Virus record (IMG/VR): IMGVR_UViG_3300028198_000256
Span: 51,004-115,003 of that record
DNA from: a virus
DNA length: 64,000 bases
Reading direction: 5' to 3' (one strand)
Program-made: the position numbers and the translations under genes
Notes under the pieces: model-generated
Told to the model about the DNA's origin: nothing
What the model saw: only the letters and a program-made list of their open reading frames with translations
Database searches by the model: none
In this document: positions 9,757-45,608 of the stretch, piece after piece
Position numbering within the stretch: the stretch's first letter is position 1
Layout of the letters: every line of letters begins with the position of its first letter

Positions 9757-9831
9757 TGGAGCGGACGGGTCGGAATCAAACCGCCTCTTTCTGTATGGTA
9801 TACAGATATTCTATCATTAAATTACACCCGC
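9757..9831 (-). tRNA. tRNA-Gly-like, anticodon ACC (possibly degenerate)
   Basis: The acceptor stem is GCGGGTG with CGTCCGC, then U73 and an encoded CCA. The G1-C2-G3 start and U73 are glycine identity features. The anticodon stem TCTGT/ACAGA closes a loop whose anticodon reads ACC. Two oddities: the D-loop lacks the usual GG pair, and the T-stem GGCGG/CCGCC needs a bulged A to form. GGT is the codon an ACC anticodon would read. It is expressed from the promoter 30 nt upstream. It may be a functional A34 glycine tRNA or a decaying one. Confidence 0.65.
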
Positions 9832-15383: not shown

Positions 15384-16333
15384 GATACTAACGCCTTTAA
15401 TGATTCACCATTACGAAATCTTCGTATCGTCTCCGATACCAAGTCCTTTACACTTATTACCTTTATCTTTGATGTCAACTCAGAAGTATGTTCTATGGAA
15501 TCTGTAATATACAAAGTCCCGATATCAGACTGTTCTATTCGTTCAATAGACTTTCCAGAAAAAACACCATGAACTGCAACACAATCAACCCTCACCGATC
15601 CAGACAACTTTAATGCCTCTGCAGCACCAACCAATGTTCCCCCACCATCAATCATATCATCTACTATAACACATTTTTTACCTTCAACATCACCAATAAC
15701 ATTCATAACTTCAGACATACCCGGCTCTGGTCGACGTTTATCAATAATTGCGATTGGTAAATTTAATTCCTTTGCAAAATACCTTGCACGACCAGAACCA
15801 CCCACATCAGCAGCAACCACAACATCCCAATAAGAAGGAACAATTGCGGCAACAATAGAATCCCTCATAGTTTTTAAAGCTGATATATGTTCACAAACAA
15901 CATTGTTATTAAAAAATGCTTGTGTTTGTAAAGAATGTAAATCCATACAGATTACTGAATTTATACCAGAATAACAGAGCATATTAGCAAACACCTTACC
16001 AGATATAGGACTTCTATTAGTACGTCTATCTTGTCTAGCATATGCATAATATGGGAATATAACATTAATAACAGATGGATTTGAACGTCTAACTGCATCA
16101 ATAAGTAACATCAATTCCATTATATCATTGTTTCTATTAGAACCTACCCCAGATTTAAATCCAGCTATAATAAAAACTTCCTCTAACCGAATGTTCTCCT
16201 TAATCTCTACATAAATCTCTGAATCAGGAAAATCTCTAATTTTCACCTTGGTCAATCTCATACCAAGATTCTCAGCAACTTGTTTGGCCAACTTTGTATT
16301 AGACCGTGTTGAAATTATTATAGATTTTTTCAT
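15380..16333 (-). CDS. prs: Ribose-phosphate pyrophosphokinase
   Basis: A 317-residue PRPP synthetase, full length relative to bacterial Prs (315). YYAYARQDRRTNRSPIS is the ATP-binding signature region, and VIVDDMIDGGGTL is the PRPP-binding loop. It makes PRPP from ribose 5-phosphate and ATP for purine, pyrimidine and NAD synthesis. It overlaps the upstream decarboxylase gene by 4 nt. It works with purN and pyrD encoded in the same window. Confidence 0.92.
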   Translation of the reverse strand: MKKSIIISTRSNTKLAKQVAENLGMRLTKVKIRDFPDSEIYVEIKENIRLEEVFIIAGFKSGVGSNRNNDIMELMLLIDAVRRSNPSVINVIFPYYAYARQDRRTNRSPISGKVFANMLCYSGINSVICMDLHSLQTQAFFNNNVVCEHISALKTMRDSIVAAIVPSYWDVVVAADVGGSGRARYFAKELNLPIAIIDKRRPEPGMSEVMNVIGDVEGKKCVIVDDMIDGGGTLVGAAEALKLSGSVRVDCVAVHGVFSGKSIERIEQSDIGTLYITDSIEHTSELTSKIKVISVKDLVSETIRRFRNGESLKALVS

Positions 16334-18060
16334 AAATTATCTTTACATAATGTTTCAATTATATTTTTCATTGCAATAGATTGATCATCTGGGGCAATCT
16401 CTATATTTAATACATAAGATTGTGACACATCATCTAATGCAGTTTCTAATGCATTCCTGAATTGAGAAGAATCTGATATATACATCCCAACACCACCATC
16501 CATTAAATCTGTTATTTTATCATATCTCCAATTATGAATATCATTGAACTCACCTTCCATAATTGCCTTTTCAGTAGAATATCCCCTATTATTAAGTATA
16601 AGAATAACAGTATTCAACTCATTACGAATGTGGGATGAAAATTCAGAACCCGTCATTTGAAAGGCACCATCACCAACAATGACTATTGGTCTTTTATGTG
16701 GTTTTGCATACTTAACACCAACTGCGGCAGGAACCGAAAATGACATAGATGTATAATATGCCATACATAAAAATTGTCCTTTCCTCATAGGAACATCAAT
16801 AATACCAAATAACGATTCACCTATATCTGATATTACTATATGATCCTCACTTATCAATTCACCTATAGTATCAAATACATATTCCAATTTAGTAGGATTC
16901 GTCATGTCATGTGACTTAAATGACAATTTACTGGTATCTACAATATTAGTCCATCTACTTATAGAATTATCAGATTGAATCTCAGAATCATCTAAATATA
17001 CCAAAAATGAACGAACCAATTCATAAAAATCCTCAGTTGTGGATTTTAATGTTTTAATATGTTTATTTTGAAACATGATACCATCATCCATATTAATAGA
17101 AATATCAGCAACAAAATCAAATGATTCAATATCCGTATTAACCATACCAATAGTAACAATACAGTCTGATTTTTTTATCTCATCAATAACTGACGAATCA
17201 GAAAATAAACCAGAAACACACCCAATAGAATTTCGACTGAACTCTGAAATGGTGGATTTACCAAGCAAAGTTGTAAATATTGGAATATTAAACTTCTTTG
17301 CAAAATTAAGAATATGATCTTCTAATGAATTACGAAATACCTCATGACCAATAATTAAAACCCTATTACTTGCAGATTTAAATTTATTCAAATTATCATA
17401 TGGTAAATTTATAGATTTGCATTCTTTAGAAAATGGAGTATCCTTAACAATGACATTATTAGAATCCTTCACATATGCTGGAAAGATTTTTGATGGTACA
17501 TCATCCCCATATACTGTTTGAAATTTCTTCAAATATTCATCAACTGAACGTACTATATCTTTATTTGAAAATTCAATATAAATTGGTCTAGAATGTTTTC
17601 GCATTTTATTCAATGCCAAATGAATCATAGACATATTAAAAAACATATCTTCAGAATCTAACGAATAAGTATTAGTGGTTATATTCTTGAATATATCCCT
17701 TTGTGTATTTGCATTATTGATTGTGTGATGTCTATTTGGATTTACCAATAAATCATCAGATGATGGTTTACCAACAAGAATAACAACTGGTGACCTTTCC
17801 GCATAGGCACCAGCAACCGAATTCATAATATTCATAGCACCAACTGAATACGTGACACATACCACACCACAACCACGTAATCTACCATATGCATCTGCGG
17901 CATATCCAGCAGAATCTTCTCTACTCACTCCAACATATTCCATATCAGAATGTTCTTCAATTTCACGCATAAAATTTAACGTGTAATCTCCTGGTATACC
18001 AAATATATGACCTGCACCATATAACTTTAATTGTTCTATTAAAAAATGTCCTAAATTCAT
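16330..18060 (-). CDS. ThDP-dependent pyruvate/indolepyruvate-type decarboxylase
   Basis: A 576-residue protein with three-domain ThDP-enzyme layout. Near residue 50 is the cofactor-activating Glu in VSREDSAGYAADAYGR. Near residue 110 is the adjacent His pair RHHTINN, characteristic of pyruvate and indolepyruvate decarboxylases. The ThDP/Mg motif runs from VGDGAFQMTG to NNRGYSTE near residues 455-485. It would decarboxylate a 2-oxo acid, most likely pyruvate or an aromatic or branched relative, to an aldehyde. Coupled to prs (ATGA). Length matches PDC (about 560). Substrate is uncertain. Confidence 0.82.
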   Translation of the reverse strand: MNLGHFLIEQLKLYGAGHIFGIPGDYTLNFMREIEEHSDMEYVGVSREDSAGYAADAYGRLRGCGVVCVTYSVGAMNIMNSVAGAYAERSPVVILVGKPSSDDLLVNPNRHHTINNANTQRDIFKNITTNTYSLDSEDMFFNMSMIHLALNKMRKHSRPIYIEFSNKDIVRSVDEYLKKFQTVYGDDVPSKIFPAYVKDSNNVIVKDTPFSKECKSINLPYDNLNKFKSASNRVLIIGHEVFRNSLEDHILNFAKKFNIPIFTTLLGKSTISEFSRNSIGCVSGLFSDSSVIDEIKKSDCIVTIGMVNTDIESFDFVADISINMDDGIMFQNKHIKTLKSTTEDFYELVRSFLVYLDDSEIQSDNSISRWTNIVDTSKLSFKSHDMTNPTKLEYVFDTIGELISEDHIVISDIGESLFGIIDVPMRKGQFLCMAYYTSMSFSVPAAVGVKYAKPHKRPIVIVGDGAFQMTGSEFSSHIRNELNTVILILNNRGYSTEKAIMEGEFNDIHNWRYDKITDLMDGGVGMYISDSSQFRNALETALDDVSQSYVLNIEIAPDDQSIAMKNIIETLCKDNL

Positions 18061-18103: not shown

Positions 18104-18886
18104 CTATAGTTCTTCTGGATTACCCCTTGTCGATTCTAAATGTTCAGCCCACGCACAACAGTCATGATACCCTGATGATGAATGATCATTAAAAGAATCT
18201 ATTTCAAATTGCAATAATCCACCACACATACCCCATATATATTGTCCAATCAAATACATTCTAGAATATCCAGAAACAACCCTACCATTACAATCAAAAT
18301 ATTTTAATAATCCAATATGTCTGAATCCAACAAGTTCTAATGGGTGTCGTGTAACTATATCACAATTATTTTTAAATCTATAAAATGTTGGAGTAAACGA
18401 AGATGCAAAATCAGAATCACCCACTCTAGGCGACCCAAAAGTATATCCTATAGAATCTTTTCCACCAAATCGTGATGAGGCTAAAGTACATAAAGCAGCT
18501 CCCAAACTATGACCTGTAAAATATACATTCCTGTGTTTATCTCCGACTATTGAATAATCTACATAATGTTGAAACAAATCATCATATATCAAGTCTAATG
18601 CACCCTTAAACCCCCTATGAACACTACCAATACTGTCTGATTCAACCTTTCTAAATTTTATATCTGCCTCAATATCTGACAATTGTGTCGGTTCCGTCCC
18701 CCGAAATACATATATAATATCTTCATCATCCCATAATCCATAACATTGAGTAGACCCATTATTAAAAAACTTAATATCATATTTCTCTGAATATATTTCT
18801 GAGAAATCTGCAACATCCAAATAAGCATTCATAGACAATCCAGAAAAAAACGTTGCATTTTTATAACTAAATTCCCTATTTAACAT
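18104..18886 (-). CDS. Class 3 lipase
   Basis: A 260-residue alpha/beta hydrolase of the class 3 lipase family. The nucleophile elbow is TGHSLGAAL near residue 127; the likely catalytic Asp is in NNCDIVTR and the His in GFRHIG. It has no signal peptide, so it would act in the cytoplasm or at membranes, releasing fatty acids from acylglycerols or phospholipids. It is flanked by a lipoprotein gene and the decarboxylase. It could also help host lysis. Linking it to the beta-oxidation enzymes of this phage is inference. Confidence 0.82.
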   Translation of the reverse strand: MLNREFSYKNATFFSGLSMNAYLDVADFSEIYSEKYDIKFFNNGSTQCYGLWDDEDIIYVFRGTEPTQLSDIEADIKFRKVESDSIGSVHRGFKGALDLIYDDLFQHYVDYSIVGDKHRNVYFTGHSLGAALCTLASSRFGGKDSIGYTFGSPRVGDSDFASSFTPTFYRFKNNCDIVTRHPLELVGFRHIGLLKYFDCNGRVVSGYSRMYLIGQYIWGMCGGLLQFEIDSFNDHSSSGYHDCCAWAEHLESTRGNPEEL

Positions 18887-19615: not shown

Positions 19616-19646
19616 ATTTTTTTCCTCTTTGTTGTAAAAATGAAAC

Positions 19647-19678
19647 ATAATGTGGGTATTTTCCAACACCCACATTAT
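19647..19678 (-). terminator. Rho-independent terminator after the tmRNA
   Basis: An 11-bp stem, ATAATGTGGGT pairing with ACCCACATTAT around a short loop, followed on the minus strand by a T-rich run. It lies directly downstream of the tmRNA coding piece. Confidence 0.85.
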
Positions 19679-19842
19679 ATATATAAGAGGATTTCTGTTG
19701 CCAAGTATCCCCAAACTCCGCATACTTATATACTAAGCTGCAACCGCAAAATTATCATCTGCATTTATTTTTTTGATTTTTACATCTTTCTTGATGAATA
19801 GTCCATATACAATATAGTACATTGTCGAATCTGTTCTCCCCC
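19679..19842 (-). ncRNA. ssrA: tmRNA, coding piece (5' half) of a circularly permuted two-piece tmRNA
   Basis: Starts at 19842 with GGGGGAG and then AACAGATTCGAC, the conserved tmRNA 5' end. GGGGGAG pairs fully with CTCTTCC of the acceptor piece and includes the G3-U70 wobble recognised by alanyl-tRNA synthetase. Next, AATGTAC pairs with GTATGTT of the acceptor piece (helix 2). A CATC/GATG stem marks pseudoknot 1. The resume codon GCA at 19762 opens the tag ADDNFAVAA, ending at TAG (19733). A TATATAAG stem after the tag matches helix 5. The 3' boundary is approximate. Confidence 0.9.
19733..19762 (-). other. tmRNA proteolysis tag ADDNFAVAA
   Basis: Ten codons from GCA to TAG inside the tmRNA coding piece. 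The tag ends FAVAA, a C-terminal signal of the type read by ClpXP/ClpAP, and resembles alphaproteobacterial tags that end in FAVAA. It is shorter than the 10-14 residue bacterial tags. The longer ORF through here has no independent start and is not a gene. Confidence 0.88.
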
Positions 19843-20120
19843 ACAAAAATTGTCTAGTCACAACCCAAAAGTCCTGCAGAACTTCATGAACGCCACTTGC
19901 GGCTAAGGATACCCGGGAGTTTGTTGTCCCGTGTTCACATACGTCCATATATACATTGTAGAACCCATCATCGCTGGTTTGGTGCTAAGTTAAATGAACC
20001 CGTTGGCTCTGGGGGAATTCCCCCTCACCATCTTTCGTACGCTCCATCTATTCTACTAAGTATACCGTGTGTCACACATTCCGTATATATGCATTATACA
20101 TCTACACTAGACAATTTATG
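19843..20120 (-). other. Intervening segment of the permuted tmRNA precursor
   Basis: 278 nt between the mature 3' end (acceptor) and the mature 5' end (coding). Immediately inside its two ends are perfect complements, ACTAGACAAT at 20106-20115 and ATTGTCTAGT at 19849-19858, which extend the acceptor stem coaxially in the precursor. The interior is visibly GC-richer (32 of 60 bases at 19861-19920) and full of short hairpins, including GGGGGAATTCCCCC near 20012. No coding or known ribozyme signature recognised. Confidence 0.7.
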
Positions 20121-20167
20121 TGGAAGAGGTGGGAATCGCACCCACGTCCAACATACATAAAATATAC
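20121..20167 (-). ncRNA. ssrA: tmRNA, acceptor piece (3' half)
   Basis: Encoded upstream of the coding piece, the reverse of one-piece tmRNA. It contains the helix 2 strand GTATGTT (20150-20156), a T-arm with stem GTGGG/CCCAC, and the acceptor strand CTCTTCC followed by discriminator A at 20121. The next bases read CA, so CCA is not fully encoded and would be added after processing. The 5' boundary is uncertain; pairing partners extend to at least 20167. Confidence 0.88.
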
Positions 20168-20176
20168 TTCAAACTA

Positions 20177-20479
20177 TTATGCTTTTAACTTTAAATCTTC
20201 CTCCGTTACAATATCTTCATACCCATCATACTCACGAACATAAAACTTTAACCCCTCTGTAACATATGACAATCTCATATTATCAAACTCATATAAATTA
20301 TGAGTTGGTTCTGACATCTCCATCACCTGTTTATGAAATGATTTCTCATCCCCATGCAAAAATTCATAAATTAATTCAGCATCCATTCTAAGTGATTGGG
20401 GTTTAATGGAAAATCCACTACCCCAACCAGCATGTATAAGAACTCCTACTTTACCATCTGCACTATAATATTTGCCCAT
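20177..20479 (-). CDS. Small conserved marine-phage protein
   Basis: A 100-residue protein. The N-terminal KVGVLIHAGWGSGFS resembles a VLVSPGYGAGWS-type motif in short proteins of marine T4-like phages, whose function is not known. It overlaps the end of the FadJ-like gene by 17 nt and ends just before the tmRNA. Confidence 0.6.
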   Translation of the reverse strand: MGKYYSADGKVGVLIHAGWGSGFSIKPQSLRMDAELIYEFLHGDEKSFHKQVMEMSEPTHNLYEFDNMRLSYVTEGLKFYVREYDGYEDIVTEEDLKLKA

Positions 20480-22460
20480 CTAAATTCTCCACTAATTGTG
20501 CATCTTGAGAATGATATTGTTTAGTGATTTCTTTATCTGTTTCATCTGAATAATGTAATGGACCACCTCTAAATGGAGCAAATCCAGTACCAAAAATAAT
20601 ACCAGAATCTATAAGATCAGCAGACTCTACAATACCATCATACAAACATAATTTACACTCTCTAATAATTTTTTCAATTAACCTTGTCGTTATCTCTATT
20701 TTAGGATCCGCATAAACCGCATCCACGGGTTTACCTTTGTCATATATGTAAAACCCACTACCAGATTTAATACCCAATTTACCCTTGTCTACTAACTTCT
20801 TTAATCTTTTTGGAACAGTAATTCCAAGATCCTCACTTATTATATCCGTAACAAAATAACAAACATCAAGTCCTACAGTATCTGCCAATAATAATGGACC
20901 CATTGGCATACCAAAATCAGTAAAAGAATTGTCAATTTCTTCTTTACTATATCCCTCATCCAACATATTAATAGCCTCAATAAGTGTAGGCATTAACACA
21001 CGATTAACTAAAAATCCTGGACTCGATTTGACTTTTAATGGTAACTTATCAATATGTCTACAAAATGACATAGACTTCTCTATAACATCCTCTGATGTAA
21101 TATCTGAATATACCACTTCAACCAAAGGCATTTTTGCAACTGGATTAAAGAAGTGTATACCAACTAATCTCTCAGGATTTTTCATTTCACTTGATAATAC
21201 TTCCAACTTGATAGAAGATGTATTAGTGCCCAATATAGCAGTACGTTTCATTTCAGATTCTAATTCACTATATAATTGACGTTTAATATCCGCATTTTCA
21301 ACAATAGCTTCAATGACTATATCTGCGGAAGATATACCATATCCATTTTTATCAGGAATCAACCTATCATACACGTCATTGATTAAATAATCCTTTCCAG
21401 AAAATCTTTTTACATAAAATTTATACGATCTTTTCATTGCGGCAGCTATGGTGTTATCATCAATATCTTGTAAAGTCACCTTATATCCCCTTAGAGCCGC
21501 CCACATTGCAATGTCTCCACCCATTACACCAGCACCTATAACGTGGACATGTTTAAGATCTAACTTAGATTTATCACCAGAAGATTTAAGTAAATCCTGT
21601 AACATAAACACTCGTAATAAATTCTTTGCAGTATCTGTCATTGCTAACTTAGAAACCGACTCCGCCTCTGCATTCATAAAATGATGCTCATCATATCCAT
21701 ATTTTTCCCATATATCAACTAAAGCATATGGAGCAGGATAATGTTGTTTATTTGCCTCTTTCCTTAAATTTCTACGTATCTGCATTGATAATAACTTTCT
21801 ACCAATACCAGAATTCAATACAGAATCTAATTTATCTGGTCGTCTAACGGGAGGACACTTTGCAAGTACATCTTCCGCAGATTTAACTAATAAACGTTCA
21901 GGAACTGCATAATCAACTAATCCCATCTTTTTTGCCTGATATACTGATAAAGTACGTCCACTTAACATCATACCCATAGCCTTAATAACACCAAGAACTC
22001 TAATAGACCTAACAGAACCACCAAATCCAGGATGTATCCCCAACTTAACTTCAGGAAATCCGACTCGGATATTAGGAGAATCTAATATAATTCTATAATC
22101 ACATGATAATGCAAGTTCCAATCCACCACCAAGACACAATCCATTAATTAATGCCAATGTAGGAAATTCCATATCATCAATTAACCACATCACTTCTTGT
22201 CCTTTAGTAATGGCTTCATAAGCATCATCATACTCATGGAAATCCTTAAATTCTGTAACATCAGCACCAGCAATAAACCCAGTTGATTTATCAGAACAAA
22301 TAACCATACCATCAGGATTATCAGATTTAACCTCTAATAATACATCTTTTAATTCCGTTAATACTTCACCAGATAATACATTCATACTACCATAAGAATA
22401 ATCAAAATGTACCCATGCTATATTGTTAGAATATTTTAATTTAAAATGTTTATAATTCAT
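20463..22460 (-). CDS. fadJ: FadJ/FadB-like enoyl-CoA hydratase / 3-hydroxyacyl-CoA dehydrogenase
   Basis: A 665-residue bifunctional beta-oxidation enzyme. The N-terminal crotonase domain has INGLCLGGGLELALSCDYR near residue 107 and PEVKLGIHPGFGG near 137, giving both catalytic Glu positions. The dehydrogenase domain begins near residue 306 with VIGAGVMGGDIA (NAD-binding) and contains GIHFFNPVAKMPLVE with the catalytic His. E. coli FadJ is 714 and FadB 729 residues, so this is slightly compact. It follows the thiolase gene after 3 nt, as fadI-fadJ do in bacteria. It hydrates and oxidises enoyl-CoA to 3-ketoacyl-CoA. Confidence 0.92.
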   Translation of the reverse strand: MNYKHFKLKYSNNIAWVHFDYSYGSMNVLSGEVLTELKDVLLEVKSDNPDGMVICSDKSTGFIAGADVTEFKDFHEYDDAYEAITKGQEVMWLIDDMEFPTLALINGLCLGGGLELALSCDYRIILDSPNIRVGFPEVKLGIHPGFGGSVRSIRVLGVIKAMGMMLSGRTLSVYQAKKMGLVDYAVPERLLVKSAEDVLAKCPPVRRPDKLDSVLNSGIGRKLLSMQIRRNLRKEANKQHYPAPYALVDIWEKYGYDEHHFMNAEAESVSKLAMTDTAKNLLRVFMLQDLLKSSGDKSKLDLKHVHVIGAGVMGGDIAMWAALRGYKVTLQDIDDNTIAAAMKRSYKFYVKRFSGKDYLINDVYDRLIPDKNGYGISSADIVIEAIVENADIKRQLYSELESEMKRTAILGTNTSSIKLEVLSSEMKNPERLVGIHFFNPVAKMPLVEVVYSDITSEDVIEKSMSFCRHIDKLPLKVKSSPGFLVNRVLMPTLIEAINMLDEGYSKEEIDNSFTDFGMPMGPLLLADTVGLDVCYFVTDIISEDLGITVPKRLKKLVDKGKLGIKSGSGFYIYDKGKPVDAVYADPKIEITTRLIEKIIRECKLCLYDGIVESADLIDSGIIFGTGFAPFRGGPLHYSDETDKEITKQYHSQDAQLVENLDGQIL

Positions 22461-22463
22461 AAT

Positions 22464-23768
22464 TTATCTCTTTAAATTTTCAACTAATATTGCACCACCT
22501 TGTCCATGTCCAATACATAAAGATGCAACCCCATAATGTCCACCACTTGATTCTAACGTCTTAATTAAATGATATACTATCCGTGTTCCAGAAGCACCTA
22601 CAGGATGTCCTATACTAATAGAACCACCATGAACATTTAATTTTTCATCAGGTATTAACCCAAATGGTTCATTCAATCCAAACTCAGATAAACAATAATC
22701 TGCATCATTCATTGCCCTTGTACAACCAATAACTTGTGATGCAAAAGCTTCATTTAATTCCCAACTATCAATATCATCACATCGTAACCCATTTCTCATA
22801 ACAAGAGGAACTATTGACTGAACTGGTCCCAATCCCATCTCTGATGGATCTACTCCAGCCCACTTAGTATCAATAATTTTTGCAATAGCTTTATCACGTA
22901 ACCCATACTTATCCAAGGCATCCTCACTTGCCAACAAAACAAATGAAGCACCATCCGTAATAGGTGAAGAATTACCCGCAGTCACATTACCAAATATTTT
23001 ATCAAAAACTGGTCTTAATTTCCCTAATTTTTCAATAGTGTTCTTGGATCTAACAGATTCATCTTTATTGTAAAAATTCCCATCAGTATCATATATAGTA
23101 ACAATCTCATCCTCTAATACATTAGTATTTTGTGAGATAGACGCTTTCATATGACTATCTAATGAATAAGCATCCATATCATTTCTAGATATATTAAACT
23201 TATATGCCAAATTCTCGGCAGTCTGTCCCATTGATAAATTAATAGTTGGATCTTTTAATGCACGTAATAAACTAATCACTGGAACTAATAACTTAGGTCT
23301 AAACTTAAGTAACACAGACAACTTCTTAGAAAATGTCTTAGCTAATGTAAATTCAGACAACCACATAGTCATATCATCATTAAATAATAATGGTGCCCTA
23401 CTCATAGTTTCCGTACCACCAGCAATAATCAAATCAGACTGTCCACAAGATATACTCCTATATGCCGAATCAATTGACTGCAAACCAGAAGCACAATTTC
23501 GTTGTACCGTATATGCCGGTATATTAACATTAAGTCCTAATCGTAATGCTAACAATTTTGCAATATTACACTCATCGGCGTTGGGGTTCATGCAACCAAC
23601 AACCAATTCATCCACATCATCATTACCAATATCATTACGAATCAACATAGGTCTAACCACCTGAATAGCCAAATCCAATGCCTTAAACTTTCCAGGACTT
23701 CCTTTAGCCTTTAAAAAAGGTGTCCTACTACCATCTACAATATATACATCATTTAACTTATATTTCAT
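22464..23768 (-). CDS. fadI: Acetyl-CoA acyltransferase (thiolase), FadI-like
   Basis: A 434-residue thiolase, matching FadI (436) in length. The active-site Cys is in QRNCASGLQS near residue 92; NEAFASQV, GGSISIGHPVGASG and SLCIGHGQGG supply the other catalytic residues (His and second Cys). It cleaves 3-ketoacyl-CoA to acetyl-CoA and a shortened acyl-CoA. The gene order thiolase then FadJ, 3 nt apart, mirrors the bacterial fadIJ operon and suggests the pair was acquired together. Confidence 0.93.
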   Translation of the reverse strand: MKYKLNDVYIVDGSRTPFLKAKGSPGKFKALDLAIQVVRPMLIRNDIGNDDVDELVVGCMNPNADECNIAKLLALRLGLNVNIPAYTVQRNCASGLQSIDSAYRSISCGQSDLIIAGGTETMSRAPLLFNDDMTMWLSEFTLAKTFSKKLSVLLKFRPKLLVPVISLLRALKDPTINLSMGQTAENLAYKFNISRNDMDAYSLDSHMKASISQNTNVLEDEIVTIYDTDGNFYNKDESVRSKNTIEKLGKLRPVFDKIFGNVTAGNSSPITDGASFVLLASEDALDKYGLRDKAIAKIIDTKWAGVDPSEMGLGPVQSIVPLVMRNGLRCDDIDSWELNEAFASQVIGCTRAMNDADYCLSEFGLNEPFGLIPDEKLNVHGGSISIGHPVGASGTRIVYHLIKTLESSGGHYGVASLCIGHGQGGAILVENLKR

Positions 23769-24157: not shown

Positions 24158-25177
24158 CTATTCAAACTTTGACAAAGACCGTAATATCTTTTCATGTTTA
24201 GAATTAATATTTTTAGGAATTTGCAAATCAATACTACATATTAAATCTCCAACACGACCATTACCTCGACGTATACCTTTACCAGTTATTCTTAATAACT
24301 TACCAACAACACTCCCACGTGATATTCTAACTTTAAGAGTGGTATTATCTAATAAAGTTAACTGAACCTCACCACCCAAACACAAAGTGGAATATCCAAC
24401 CTCTAACTTACGAATCAAATTAAAAGCATCTCGTTGATATATGTCATGTGGTAATATTTTAACTGATATATATAAATCACCGACAACACCATTATCTTTG
24501 TTAGTAAATCCACGTCCTTGATATCTTAACCTCTCACCACTGGTTATTCCAGAAGGTATAGTTAATTTAAAATTTTCCTGTTTTTTTGTATAACCTTCCC
24601 CATTACACACTTTACAAGGTTTTATTATAACCTTACCACGACCACTACAATAACCACACTCAGAAGCAACCCTTTGTCCAAACAGATTAGAATGATATAA
24701 CATACCATTACCACCACAAGAACGACAATCAATCTCATCTTTAGGAGATAATATACCACTACCCCTACATGGTGTACATCTATATTCCTTTGGTATCTTT
24801 ATTTCTAAATCATCACCATATACTGATTGTTGTAAAGTTAAAGAAACCGTATATTCAACATCACGACCCCTATGGTTTTGTCTTGGTCGACTTTGTTGTT
24901 GTCCAAACCCACCGAATATATCTGAAAATGGATCAAATCCACGTCCACCCTGTCTTTGTGTATCATGTCCAAATGTATCATACTGTCTGCGTTTTTCAGA
25001 ATCAGACAAAATTTCATACGCCTCAGTAACATCTTTAAACTTAGATTCACAAACAGTATCACCCTGGTTTTTATCAGGGTGATATTTCATTGCCAACTTA
25101 CGATAACTTTTCTTTATATCACCAGAAGATGCATTCTTCTTCACACTCAATACATCATAATAATCACGTTTAGACAT
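24158..25177 (-). CDS. dnaJ: DnaJ co-chaperone
   Basis: A 339-residue full DnaJ. The J-domain carries YHPDKNQGD near residue 35; a Gly/Phe region around residues 75-100 is followed by four zinc motifs ([32 protein letters not shown]) and the C-terminal substrate domain. The ATG at 25177 is preferred to the TTG one codon earlier. It stimulates DnaK ATPase and delivers clients. It follows dnaK after 12 nt, as in bacterial operons. Confidence 0.95.
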
Positions 25178-25189
25178 CAAATCACCGAA

Positions 25190-27100
25190 TTATTTAGTTT
25201 CTGTTTTTTCTTCTGGTGTCGGTTCCACAATCTCAGCATCTACAACTTCTGCCTCTTCGGGAACGACACCATCAACGACTTCTGCTTCAGGTTCCGGAAC
25301 TGGCTTTTGTAAAGTTGCAGATAACTCAGCCAACGATTGCACTTTAGTATTAATATCATCTAAATCTTCACCAGACATAGATTCTTTCAATTCAGAAACA
25401 CTATTTACGATCTTCTCACGTTCTTCATCTGGTACTATAATTTCTTCGTCTGCTAATTTCTTCTCAACATCATTAATAAATCCTTCCGCCATATTTCTTG
25501 CACCAACCAACGCAGTATACTTATCATCTGCATCTTTATGTTCTTCACCCTCTTTAATCATACGTTCTACATCTTCATCAGATAACCCCGATGAAGATTT
25601 AATTTCAATTGATTGTTCCTTACCAGTGTTTTTATCCTTGGCAGAAACATGCATAATACCATTAGCATCAATATTAAATTCAACTTCAATTTGTGGTGTT
25701 CCGCGTGGTCCTGGTTGAATTTCTGTTAAATCAAATCTACCTAAAGAATTATTACCAGAAGCAACTGAACGTTCACCTTGAAGAACATGAATAGTTACAG
25801 CTGATTGATTATCCTCTGCCGTCGAAAATACTTCACTTTTTTTCGTTGGAATGGTGGTATTCTTTTCAATTAATGTGGTCATAACACCACCCATCGTTTC
25901 AATACCTAATGACAATGGAGTAACATCAAGCAATAACACATTGTCAATACCACCAGATAACACACCACCCTGTGTAGCAGCACCAAGAGCAACTGACTCA
26001 TCAGGATTTACATCCTTTCTCGGTTCAATTCCAAAAATAGATTTTACCATTTCTTGAACTTTAGGCATTCTAGTTTGCCCACCAACTAAAATAACATCAT
26101 CGACCTTAGTAATGTCTGCATCCTTTAACGCAGTAACACATGGGTTTTTTGTACGTTCAATTAATTCAGATACCATCTTCTCCAATTTAGAACGTGAAAT
26201 CTTAACATTTAAATGTTTAGGACCAGTAGAATCCGCAGTAATATATGGTAAATTTACTTCAGTTTCTTGAGTCGATGACAACTCAATTTTACACTTTTCT
26301 GCCGCTTCTTTTAATCGTTGTAATGCAATAGGATCATTATGAAGATCTACACCATTTTCTTTTTTAAATTCATCACAGAGATAATCAATAAGTCGTAAAT
26401 CGAAATCCTCACCACCTAAAAATGTATCACCATTAGTAGACAATACTTCAAAGGAATATTCCCCATCCACATTCGACATCTCAATAATAGAAACATCAAA
26501 AGTACCACCACCAAGATCATAAACAGCAACTACCTTATCATCTTTAATATCACCCTTATCTAAACCATAAGATAGAGCCGCAGCAGTAGGTTCATTGATA
26601 ATTCGCATAACATCTAGTCCTGCAATCTTACCAGCATCCTTTGTTGCCTGTCTTTGTGAATCATTAAAATAAGCAGGAACAGTAATAACCGCCTGTGTTA
26701 CTTCAGAACCCAAATATGACTCCGCATCTTTTTTTAATTTCATTAAAATTTTTGATGAAATTTCTGGGGGAGATAATAACTCACCACCAGATTTTACCCA
26801 CGCATCACCATTATCCGCCTCTACAATGTCATAAGGCACCATAGATATGTCCTTTTGAACTGCATCATCTTTAAACTTTCTGCCAATTAATCTCTTAACC
26901 GCAAACAATGTATCTTTTGGATTAGTCACCGATTGTCTCTTAGCCGACTGTCCTACTAATATTTCCGAATCCGAATGTGAAACTATAGATGGTGTCGTCC
27001 TAGAACCTTCACCATTTTCAATTACTACTGCCTTACCATTCTCTAATACAGCTACACATGAATTAGTAGTACCCAAATCAATACCAATAATATTACCCAT
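25190..27100 (-). CDS. dnaK: DnaK (Hsp70) chaperone
   Basis: A 636-residue full-length Hsp70 (E. coli DnaK 638). It starts [15 protein letters not shown] and contains [29 protein letters not shown] and the linker [13 protein letters not shown] leading to the substrate-binding domain. The acidic C-terminus ends in a TPEEKTETK tail rather than the EEVKDKK of E. coli. The pair could assist folding of phage virion proteins or replication complexes. A complete dnaK-dnaJ pair is unusual in a T4-like phage. Confidence 0.96.
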
Positions 27101-38040: not shown

Positions 38041-38069
38041 ATAATACCACAATATGACTCAAATGTCAA
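38041..38069 (-). promoter_or_regulatory. Early promoter with extended -10
   Basis: Minus-strand TTGACA at 38064-38069, 17-bp spacer ending TGG, and TATTAT at 38041-38046. The -35 lies inside the 3' end of the acyltransferase/hydrolase gene. It drives the leader microprotein, tRNA and following genes. Confidence 0.85.
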
Positions 38070-40341
38070 GTCTTTTTTCAATAAACATTGAAATTCTTTC
38101 CCATATTAAATCAGAATTATTATACAATATACCATGACAATCAGAACCAATAATATGCATTTCTTTATCTACAGAAGATATATTATTATATATATAATCA
38201 GCACCATCTACTGAAACTAATGTGTCATCCTTAGAATAAATGACCAACATAGGTATTGTTACATCACATAAACACTTCTTCACACTTTTAACTAATTTAC
38301 CTATTTCATATATACTACGTGTGGGAACTAACCAATAATTAATATGTTCATTCTCTGGAATATTCTTAAAAAAAGGTTTCACTCCATTATTCCCTATCAC
38401 CAAACCCACCACCCTATTAACATAATGAACTAATGGTGCAAATTTAACCCGGAAATCCGTATAAAAAAATGGAGCTGATATAACAACTACTGATTTAACT
38501 CTATAATCAGAAGAAAATTCTTCACGTAATGCAATAAGTCCGCCAGTAGAAAATCCAACAATCACAATATTTTCAGATAACATAGAAGTTATTTGAAAAT
38601 ACTCGTATACTGATTTAATCCAATCTTCATAACTATATGATAACAAATCATAAGGTGATGTACCATGTCCAACTATTCTTGCACCAACTACAATATATCC
38701 TATACCACATAAATATTCACCAAAACCTCTAACTTCATATGGAGATGACAATAATCCATGGATTAATAACACAACAATACCATTAGACTTCTTAGGAAAT
38801 AGAATAAATGGTTTATTATCAGAAGAATTAATACCATCAAATTTAGAATTATATTTATCATTAATATACATATTCTTATCGTACTCATATGACAACTGTT
38901 GGTCGTCCAATAAATGCATTGCAATATCTTTGTTACTAATAGTATCTACACTTTCAACAATCTTATTAATAACTTTACCAACAATAGAAACCGGCTGTAC
39001 TTCATTATAATATACAACTAATAAATTCTCAACCCTAACCGTCAACGGATCTACACCAGAATCAAAATTACCAGATAAATATATAACATCACCACCAATA
39101 ATTAGCAATCCTTGTTTTTCAAGAGAATCAATATACTTAATCATGTTAACATTATTACCATTTAATATATCACCATATATATTAGGTCGCATTAAACCAT
39201 CGTGCAACCTCACTCCTGATTTATGTTGTAATGTTTTTAATGTTAAATATAACTCCTTATAAAGTGTTTTCTTATTTACAAATGATATATTTTGTTTGAA
39301 TCTATACATCAATAAACAAGATGTCAGATGGCTTAAATTAATAGTAACATAAGAATAAATACTTTTAGTGTAAAAGTCACGTGTAACATTAGAACACTTT
39401 ATGAGATGTTTATGCAACATCTCACCTTTCCAAGACTTATCAACACTACCAATAGAAAACACATCATCTAAGGATTTTATAGAATCAGTAAATGTTTCAG
39501 TTAAAGATGACTTCCATGAATGCCAAATACCGGAGGTAGATATCACTTTACTCATAACAACATCCATATCAGTATCTTTAGTAATTAAATTCCCCTCAAC
39601 TATCAATTCTTCTGTTTGTCGTAATGTAAGTCCATTAGAAATATATTCAACAGCCTTCAATAAAACATTATCAGTCGCACGTAAAGGATAAAACGTTATA
39701 TTAGATGCAACTATATTAGTAGGTATTTCTACTGCTGCCAATAACTCATCCAAACTATGAAAATCTAATTCCTTTTGCCACATTAATAATCTATCCATAT
39801 CCATATCTCTATGAGCATTACGAACTATGAACTTAAACACCTCCAACCCATGTGACAAAACAGCTGCACCAGTATGTTGTTTCCGCACTTTCATGGTTGT
39901 TTGACATAACATATTATAATGTCCTTCATCATCAACAACCCGATGATCCTTTACCATCCCACCTTCAGGGAAAATAACTACTTTATGACCATGTAATATT
40001 TGTTTTGCTAATATAGAAAACAACCTTGGATGATCATGTGGTACAACCCCCAACTTCGTTAAATACGATGACAATATACCATCATTTTTAAAAAATTCAC
40101 CAGAACCAACAGAATAACAATAACTACCATTTTCTTCATGTATCAAATATTGAGGAATAAATGTTTCTATACGAGAAAAATGATTAAATACAAATATACT
40201 ACCATCATTTATATTACACGCAGAATGAATATTAACATTCATGCGTAACACTTTCTTCATAATACGAAATGCTCGTAAAGACAAACGATACATACGTTTG
40301 TCTATATCAACCCAATCATGATTATACTTAGAAAGTTTCAT
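38059..40341 (-). CDS. Glycerolipid acyltransferase - alpha/beta hydrolase fusion
   Basis: A 760-residue two-enzyme protein. Residues about 15-190 resemble PlsB/PlsC-type acyltransferases: FNHFSRIETF corresponds to the catalytic HX4D block (Glu in place of Asp) and VVIFPEGGMVKD to the glycerol-phosphate/acyl motif. The middle (about 190-500) is unassigned. Residues about 520-760 are an alpha/beta hydrolase: LLIHGLLSSPYE oxyanion loop, nucleophile elbow VGFSTGG, Asp in YSKDDTLV and His in SDCHGIL. It would remodel or degrade glycerolipids at the membrane. It overlaps the downstream-facing methyltransferase end by 4 nt, so the two share a promoter at 41369. Confidence 0.8.
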   Translation of the reverse strand: MKLSKYNHDWVDIDKRMYRLSLRAFRIMKKVLRMNVNIHSACNINDGSIFVFNHFSRIETFIPQYLIHEENGSYCYSVGSGEFFKNDGILSSYLTKLGVVPHDHPRLFSILAKQILHGHKVVIFPEGGMVKDHRVVDDEGHYNMLCQTTMKVRKQHTGAAVLSHGLEVFKFIVRNAHRDMDMDRLLMWQKELDFHSLDELLAAVEIPTNIVASNITFYPLRATDNVLLKAVEYISNGLTLRQTEELIVEGNLITKDTDMDVVMSKVISTSGIWHSWKSSLTETFTDSIKSLDDVFSIGSVDKSWKGEMLHKHLIKCSNVTRDFYTKSIYSYVTINLSHLTSCLLMYRFKQNISFVNKKTLYKELYLTLKTLQHKSGVRLHDGLMRPNIYGDILNGNNVNMIKYIDSLEKQGLLIIGGDVIYLSGNFDSGVDPLTVRVENLLVVYYNEVQPVSIVGKVINKIVESVDTISNKDIAMHLLDDQQLSYEYDKNMYINDKYNSKFDGINSSDNKPFILFPKKSNGIVVLLIHGLLSSPYEVRGFGEYLCGIGYIVVGARIVGHGTSPYDLLSYSYEDWIKSVYEYFQITSMLSENIVIVGFSTGGLIALREEFSSDYRVKSVVVISAPFFYTDFRVKFAPLVHYVNRVVGLVIGNNGVKPFFKNIPENEHINYWLVPTRSIYEIGKLVKSVKKCLCDVTIPMLVIYSKDDTLVSVDGADYIYNNISSVDKEMHIIGSDCHGILYNNSDLIWERISMFIEKRLDI

Positions 40342-44330: not shown

Positions 44331-45608
44331 TTAAAACTGTTCCTCTTCAGTAGAACCATCCATAGCAGTAACCGATGAGTTACCACCTTGTATAACATTT
44401 GTAACAGAATCAAAATAACCAGCACCAACTTCCTCTTGATGCCTTGCAAATGTATATCCATCTTTAACCGAATTAAACTCAGGTTCTTGGACACCCTCCA
44501 CATAAGCAGTCATACCACGTTCAACATAATCTTTTGACAACTCAAACATAGAATGCCACATATCATGAATACCAGCCAGCGTAATAAATTGCCACTTGAA
44601 CCCCATCTCTCCCAATTTTTGTTGATAGTGTGCTATTTCTTCGTCGCTCAAATTCTTCTTCCAATTAAAAGACGGTGAGCAGTTATAAGCCAGCAACTTG
44701 CCAGGATACTGTTGGTGTATCGCAGTCGCAAATTTTTGAGCCTCTTCTAAATTCGGCACCGCAGTTTCACACCAAAGCATATCAGCATAAGCCGCATAAG
44801 ATAATCCCCTTGATATCGCTTGGTCTATTCCGCAGTTGACTCTAAAAAAACCCTCTTCAGTTCTCTCCCCTGTGACGAATTCCTTGTCACGAACATCAAT
44901 ATCAGATGTCAGCAAAGTTGCTGCGTTAGCATCTGTCCTTGCGATAATAACGATAGGCACACCCATAACATCAGATGCCAATCTCGCGGATACTAGTTTC
45001 TGGATTGCCTCTTGGGTTGGCACTAACACCTTACCACCCATGTGTCCACATTTCTTAGCAGATGACAGTTGATCTTCTAAATGAATACCAGACACACCAC
45101 ACTCTATCATAGATTTAGTCAACTCATAAGAGTTCAACACCCCCCCAAACCCAGCCTCAGCATCTGCGATAATTGGAGCAAAGTAATCAATATCATTTCT
45201 TCCCTTATTCCATTGGATTTCATCTGCTCTACGGAATGTATTATTAATACGTCTTACCATCATTGGTACTGAATTATATGCATATAATGATTGATCTGGA
45301 TACATAGTTTCTGACGAATTACCATCAGCAGCAACTTGCCAACCTGATAAATATATAACCTTAATACCAGCCTTAACTTGTTGCATTGCCTGTCCAGCAG
45401 TTATAGCACCCATAGAATTAACATATCCATCTTCGTTAATCAATTTCCAAAGTTTTTTAGAACCCACGGTAGACACTGTATATTCTTCATCAAACGAACC
45501 ACTTAACCTAATAACATCTTCTGCCGAATAATCACGTTTGACATTCAACCAACGCTCATTCTCTCTCCAATCTTTCTCTAAAGTTCGAACTCTACCCAAT
45601 TGTTCCAT
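44331..45608 (-). CDS. aceA: Isocitrate lyase
   Basis: A 425-residue class I isocitrate lyase (E. coli 434) splitting isocitrate into glyoxylate and succinate. The catalytic KKCGH loop is at residues 185-189; HLEDQ and [10 protein letters not shown], which holds the second active-site loop, are intact, as is the C-terminal STEEEQF. Base composition is locally higher in G+C than in neighbours (28 and 27 G/C in the 60-base blocks at 44701 and 44941), suggesting recent acquisition. It follows nrdA after 21 nt. No malate synthase is in this window, so that step would be host-encoded or elsewhere. Confidence 0.96.

Follow-up and report, generated by a model that had tools for sequence, protein, structure and literature searches.

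A conserved, apparently independent structured RNA in the intervening sequence of a circularly permuted phage tmRNA gene

Two-piece tmRNAs encoded by phages have already been published, as in the Methylophilales phage Melnitz, and 53 have been predicted among phage genomes (PMC9004378); a tmRNA database holds 79 phage sequences of all forms (PMC11915505). By itself, a permuted phage tmRNA is a known kind of gene, found in Melnitz and in other marine phages. The intervening sequence (IVS) of such a gene can also house another gene, and in GCA-2688965 sp002688965.2 a permuted tmRNA carries a tRNA-Ala gene inside its IVS (PMC11915505). The Rfam model RF04321 (tmRNA_permuted) re-detects the tmRNAs of Melnitz (113.4 bits, span 333 nt) and of Pelagibacter phage HTVC008M (90.6 bits, span 210 nt). 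The Melnitz IVS, of ~143 nt, is unrelated to the IVS described here and also seems readable as a short open frame. A glutamine riboswitch was reported as part of Melnitz ssrA; in the Melnitz sequence (MZ577097; L079) this riboswitch lies at 1886-1934, just downstream of the tmRNA match and not inside it, given that the alpha_tmRNA match ends at 1878.

The stretch analyzed here, referred to as the window, comprises 64,000 nucleotides (G000:C1:51004-115003) of a 115,003-bp virus record. The preliminary description had assigned this DNA to a T4-like phage, and the gene content of the record agrees: it includes gp43, gp44, gp45, gp46-like and baseplate genes, the last comprising baseplate wedge and tube-cap genes, and its T4-type matches include phrog_262 DNA polymerase, an SbcC-like protein and RNR. 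The polymerase is ~47% identical to cyanophage gp43. Judged by these genes, the carrier genome is that of a marine T4-like myovirus. Genes for a FadB-like protein (enoyl-CoA hydratase and 3-hydroxyacyl-CoA dehydrogenase; window 20463-22460) and a FadA-like thiolase (22464-23768) lie side by side on the minus strand. For FadB, the best matches among GenBank 'phage' entries reach ~34% identity, and most of these entries appear to be bacterial contigs that carry a phage label. The window also encodes isocitrate lyase (44331-45608), Hsp70 (DnaK; 25190-27100), DnaJ (24158-25180), a class 3 lipase (18104-18886), a thiamine-pyrophosphate enzyme (16330-18060) and an acyltransferase/hydrolase fusion (38059-40341), which together form a lipid/glyoxylate and chaperone set that is unusual for a phage. 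A marginal tRNA match (29.9 bits against a cut-off of 29), which ARAGORN does not call, lies at 9761-9831 on the minus strand.

The tmRNA gene and the sequence between its two pieces consist of the following features.

20121 to 20178, minus strand: acceptor piece, matched by RF04321 from model position 1 and 100% conserved in L005, L009 and L011; it contains the 3' strand of helix 2, GGAC, the T-arm (20145-20129), CUCUUCC (20128-20122) and A73 (20121)
19843 to 20120, minus strand: 278-nt IVS, a conserved structured RNA as judged from the six-sequence alignment A4, with copies in L052 and L056 and no Rfam match
19970 to 20046, minus strand: variable central domain of the IVS with a GGGGG/CCCCC hairpin and an AAUU loop, 74% identical between the window and L011
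19679 to 19842, minus strand: coding piece, matched by RF04321 to 19733 and by RF01849 to 19684; it contains GGGGGAG (19842-19836), TTCGAC (19829-19824), the 5' strand of helix 2 and the conserved 3' GGCAACAGAA
19733 to 19762, minus strand: tag reading frame GCA GAT GAT AAT TTT GCG GTT GCA GCT TAG, ADDNFAVAA*, from sequence and translation
19645 to 19680, minus strand: intrinsic-terminator-like hairpin of 16 pairs with a T-rich tail

The preliminary description had recognized a circularly permuted tmRNA gene of the two-piece type at this locus, and the covariance analysis supports that view. The segment 20178-19733 (minus strand) matches RF04321 with 89.9 bits (E 5.9e-16 over 64 kb), well over the GA cut-off of 47 bits, and homologous loci score 85-90 bits. 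The check proposed at that time, a search with the alpha_tmRNA family (RF01849), gave a score of 47.5 bits (E 6e-12), which falls just short of the GA cut-off of 50 bits. This alpha_tmRNA match reaches over the conserved 3' GGCAACAGAA. Among relatives with a short IVS, L043 and L054 pass the alpha model and L041 and L044 pass the beta model. ARAGORN detects the short-IVS relatives and makes no call on the window gene, likely because of the long insert. The mature tmRNA would consist of two pieces.

The structural elements proposed earlier are all located on the minus strand, with the acceptor half encoded ahead of the coding half. GGGGGAG pairs with CUCUUCC to form the 7-bp acceptor stem, which includes the expected G3-U70 pair and also G4-U69. 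TTCGAC, the intact ADDNFAVAA frame with its degradation-type end and the terminator-like hairpin likewise occur where they were described. Helix 2, through which the two pieces would be held to each other, is present and covaries among relatives, reading AAUAGU/ACUAUU in the window, GAUAGU/ACUAUC in L041 and GACAGU/ACUGUC in L044; it carries one mismatch in L024. ARAGORN reports the tags AEDNFALAA and AEYNFALAA in relatives. Two other phage permuted tmRNAs (L051 7745-8159 and L055 11173-11613) have predicted tags of 30 residues rather than ~10 (VNAKTSTGEVTVSGKGVKFSARTAKATLAV and a relative), which end in LAV rather than LAA. Both tmRNA pieces are under strong constraint: between the window and L011, identity amounts to 100% in the acceptor piece and 98.8% in the coding piece, compared with 82% at fadB third positions.

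The unusual part of the gene, absent from the observation and the interpretation of the preliminary description, is the 278-nt IVS. It spans the gap between A73 (20121) and G1 (19842), with CAU in place of an encoded CCA. The nearest phage tmRNAs fill this gap with CCA followed by 2 nt (L024 and L044), 6 nt (L054) or 7 nt (L041); L024 further shares with the window a homologous small signal-peptide gene downstream. The RF04321 match of the window thereby spans 446 nt, versus ~169-337 nt among the over-cut-off matches listed from a sample of 398 Pseudomonadota genomes. The two ends of the IVS pair in a 12-bp closing helix (20117-20106 with 19858-19847), stacked on the acceptor stem.

Judged by its conservation and pairing, the IVS is a conserved structured RNA rather than junk. 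It is present in L002-L005, L009, L011 and L037, and the window and L011 share 98.6% identity over its 3' 138 nt, though fadB third positions have diverged as noted above. The central domain is variable, and its changes preserve pairs (GGGGG/CCCCC, GGGUG/CGCCC and GAGUG/CGCUC), with two two-sided changes in this hairpin. In alignment A4, which consists of six distinct sequences, one partial and all metagenomic, 346 of the 347 cells of a structure with 65 pairs in 11 helices are paired, where the structure was drawn from the same sequences on which the pairs were counted. Six pairs, distributed over five helices, show two-sided changes. None of 500 shuffles reaches the pairing and covariation values of the IVS, and slid partners pair at 34-48%. 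The closing helix, the hairpins and the long-range helix all reappear in an unbiased helix listing, but its 12 covarying helices only equal the maximum of 30 column-shuffled controls. Single-sequence folding yields modest z-scores (-1.6 for the window and -1.9 for L056). G-U pairs occupy 41 of the 347 cells; these would be A-C mismatches on the opposite strand, which indicates that the RNA is made from the tmRNA strand. Two hairpin loops, AAUU in GAAUUC and UGCA in CUGCAG, are palindromic and invariant; in a third, AUGCAU, only L005 breaks the palindrome. A pseudoknot between the loop CAACAAAC and the 3' GUUGU was rejected, as it is not kept in L056.

Searches for known relatives of the IVS RNA returned no match. 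The IVS alone, in its window and L056 copies, has no Rfam match at E<=10, so the RNA is filed under no known family, and a riboswitch, a group I or II intron, RNase P, a known ribozyme, GOLLD and ROOL were dropped as candidates. A retron or reverse-transcriptase-linked RNA was rejected given that the phage record contains no RVT_1 match. An antisense 87-aa open frame (19897-20160, plus strand) is not a credible protein-coding gene, given that the homologues differ from one another by single-base insertions and that the G-U pairs are strand-specific. The insert has no second copy in the phage's own genome. It was likewise not found in 398 Pseudomonadota genomes by a search run without a positive control, in 84,980 species genomes by an exact-pattern scan, or in the Melnitz and HTVC008M tmRNAs, and blastn gave no meaningful match among GenBank phages and plasmids. 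Looser-pattern matches (L059-L061) lie within coding sequence and were set aside as chance. Weak matches to a covariance model of the IVS RNA, R1, in the L055 record and in MH319754 (9-11 bits) were chance-like on inspection.

Pattern scans revealed two more homologues of the IVS in other T4-like phages. In L052, the RNA again forms a tmRNA IVS with the same CCA-less junction, and the copy is 86% identical to the window IVS (E 4e-41), although it is partial because the contig ends inside the RNA. In L056, a 10.4-kb contig in which RF04321 finds no tmRNA, a free-standing copy (8312-8035) is 82% identical to the window IVS (E 6e-71) and comes immediately after a small gene, itself located downstream of a cobT-like gene. 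Downstream of this free-standing RNA lie two near-perfect matches to sigma-70-type promoters (7982-7954 and 7772-7744, minus strand). The gp44 proteins of the three phages share only ~52% amino-acid identity. Model R1 detects the RNA once per phage record and not at all in the records that carry short-IVS tmRNAs. L011 has a mosaic copy, in which the IVS flanks share about 99-100% identity with the window, whereas the central domain is closer to the free-standing L056 copy (92% identity) than to the window (74%). This pattern shows that copies inside and outside tmRNA genes recombine between phages, either directly or via shared relatives.

These relationships, drawn from six sequences, fit one event in which the RNA entered a tmRNA gene and then spread, given that four close relatives have a short gap and that CCA is lost at the identical junction in the window clade and in L052. 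Alternatively, the relatives may have lost a long IVS.

Whichever way the insert arose, we consider it likely that the locus is a working permuted tmRNA gene whose IVS has been taken over by an independent structured phage RNA of ~280 nt, of a family not in Rfam. Transcription would begin upstream of 20178 and run to the terminator at 19645, yielding one precursor. Host RNase P would then cut before G1, RNase Z or exonucleases would cut after A73, and CCA would be added to the acceptor end after cutting because none is encoded, unlike in the short-IVS relatives. The two-piece tmRNA would act with SmpB in ribosome rescue and would tag peptides with ADDNFAVAA; no phage-encoded SmpB was found in the record, and host SmpB would therefore serve. 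The same cuts would free the IVS, which would then act separately as a compact RNA closed by its helix. The acceptor stem and the closing helix of the IVS form one long continuous helix in which A73 lies opposite U-1, and this helix could hinder precise cutting by RNase P and RNase Z, which counts against the proposed explanation. Similar pairing of the IVS ends is visible in other phages (L050-L055).

That end-pairing also bears on an alternative reading, in which the IVS is an ordinary spacer of unusual length that folds only in the service of the tmRNA in cis, keeping the halves together for processing before being degraded. Bacterial permuted tmRNAs differ widely in IVS length, and the Melnitz IVS measures ~143 nt. 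However, the L056 homologue, 82% identical, stands outside any tmRNA, and the nearest relatives need just 5-10 nt in all; we therefore regard the spacer reading as unlikely. Somewhat less probable still is the insertion of a catalytic RNA into the junction, be it a self-splicing or mobile ribozyme (the remnant of a group I or II intron) or one of another type. The ~280-nt size, the site in a tRNA-like gene, the exchange of modules between phages and the near-invariant 3' half would suit such an element, and group I introns do occur in tmRNA genes, where they sit in the T-loop (PMC11915505). Nevertheless, neither the window nor the L056 copy resembles an Rfam intron or ribozyme family at the threshold given above, 12-bp pairing of the 5' and 3' ends does not characterize group I introns, a splicing reaction would ligate the acceptor and coding pieces so that the CCA end would be blocked, and the record contains no reverse transcriptase. 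It is quite improbable that the phage RNA acts against host trans-translation, as a decoy or inhibitor, instead of being a working tmRNA. A tag-less phage tmRNA (DS6A) inhibits host tmRNA (PMC11915505) and the window gene encodes no CCA, but the intact tag frame ending in AVAA, the G3-U70 pair, the covarying helix 2 and the 99-100% conservation of both pieces speak for a functional molecule.

Beyond the proposal of a working tmRNA gene with an independent RNA in its IVS, we tentatively suggest that the IVS RNA may belong to a new class of structured phage RNAs that are mobile and perhaps form homo-oligomers via their conserved palindromic loops. Such an RNA would spread between T4-like phages in two forms, as a stand-alone gene and as an insert at the permuted tmRNA junction, with tmRNA maturation doubling as its excision and expression. 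Palindromic kissing loops help to hold OLE and GOLLD oligomers together (PMC12286853), and on this precedent homo-oligomerization of the IVS RNA is a guess, no more. Independently of this suggestion, a tmRNA gene in which the spacer, as a rule thrown away, is a conserved RNA that also stands alone in another phage would be an RNA gene within a gene, in which one maturation pathway yields two different phage RNAs. The locus also adds a structured RNA family absent from Rfam to a field that includes large phage RNAs such as GOLLD and ROOL.

The tmRNA itself closely resembles the permuted tmRNAs described by RF04321 and RF01849, including those of Melnitz and HTVC008M, in gene order, the G3-U70 stem, the T-arm, TTCGAC, helix 2, the tag and the 3' GGCAACAGAA, as well as in its location on a marine T4-like phage. 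It differs in that its 278-nt IVS consists of a conserved, independently occurring RNA and in that CCA is not encoded. Group I introns in tmRNA genes are RNA inserts of similar size, but they occupy the T-loop, whereas the IVS RNA, which lacks a group I match and has paired ends, sits at the permuted junction. GOLLD and ROOL, too, are phage RNAs with conserved structures and no known function that lie near tRNA-type genes (PMC12286853), and they assemble by kissing loops, some of which are palindromic, as are the conserved AAUU and UGCA tetraloops of the IVS RNA. The IVS RNA is smaller, at ~280 nt compared with >800 nt for many GOLLD RNAs, has no Rfam match and shares no sequence found with either. 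The tmRNA gene of GCA-2688965 sp002688965.2 offers the same arrangement of an independent RNA gene nested in an IVS; that gene nests a tRNA, whereas the window nests a structured RNA that is conserved across several phages and also occurs free-standing.
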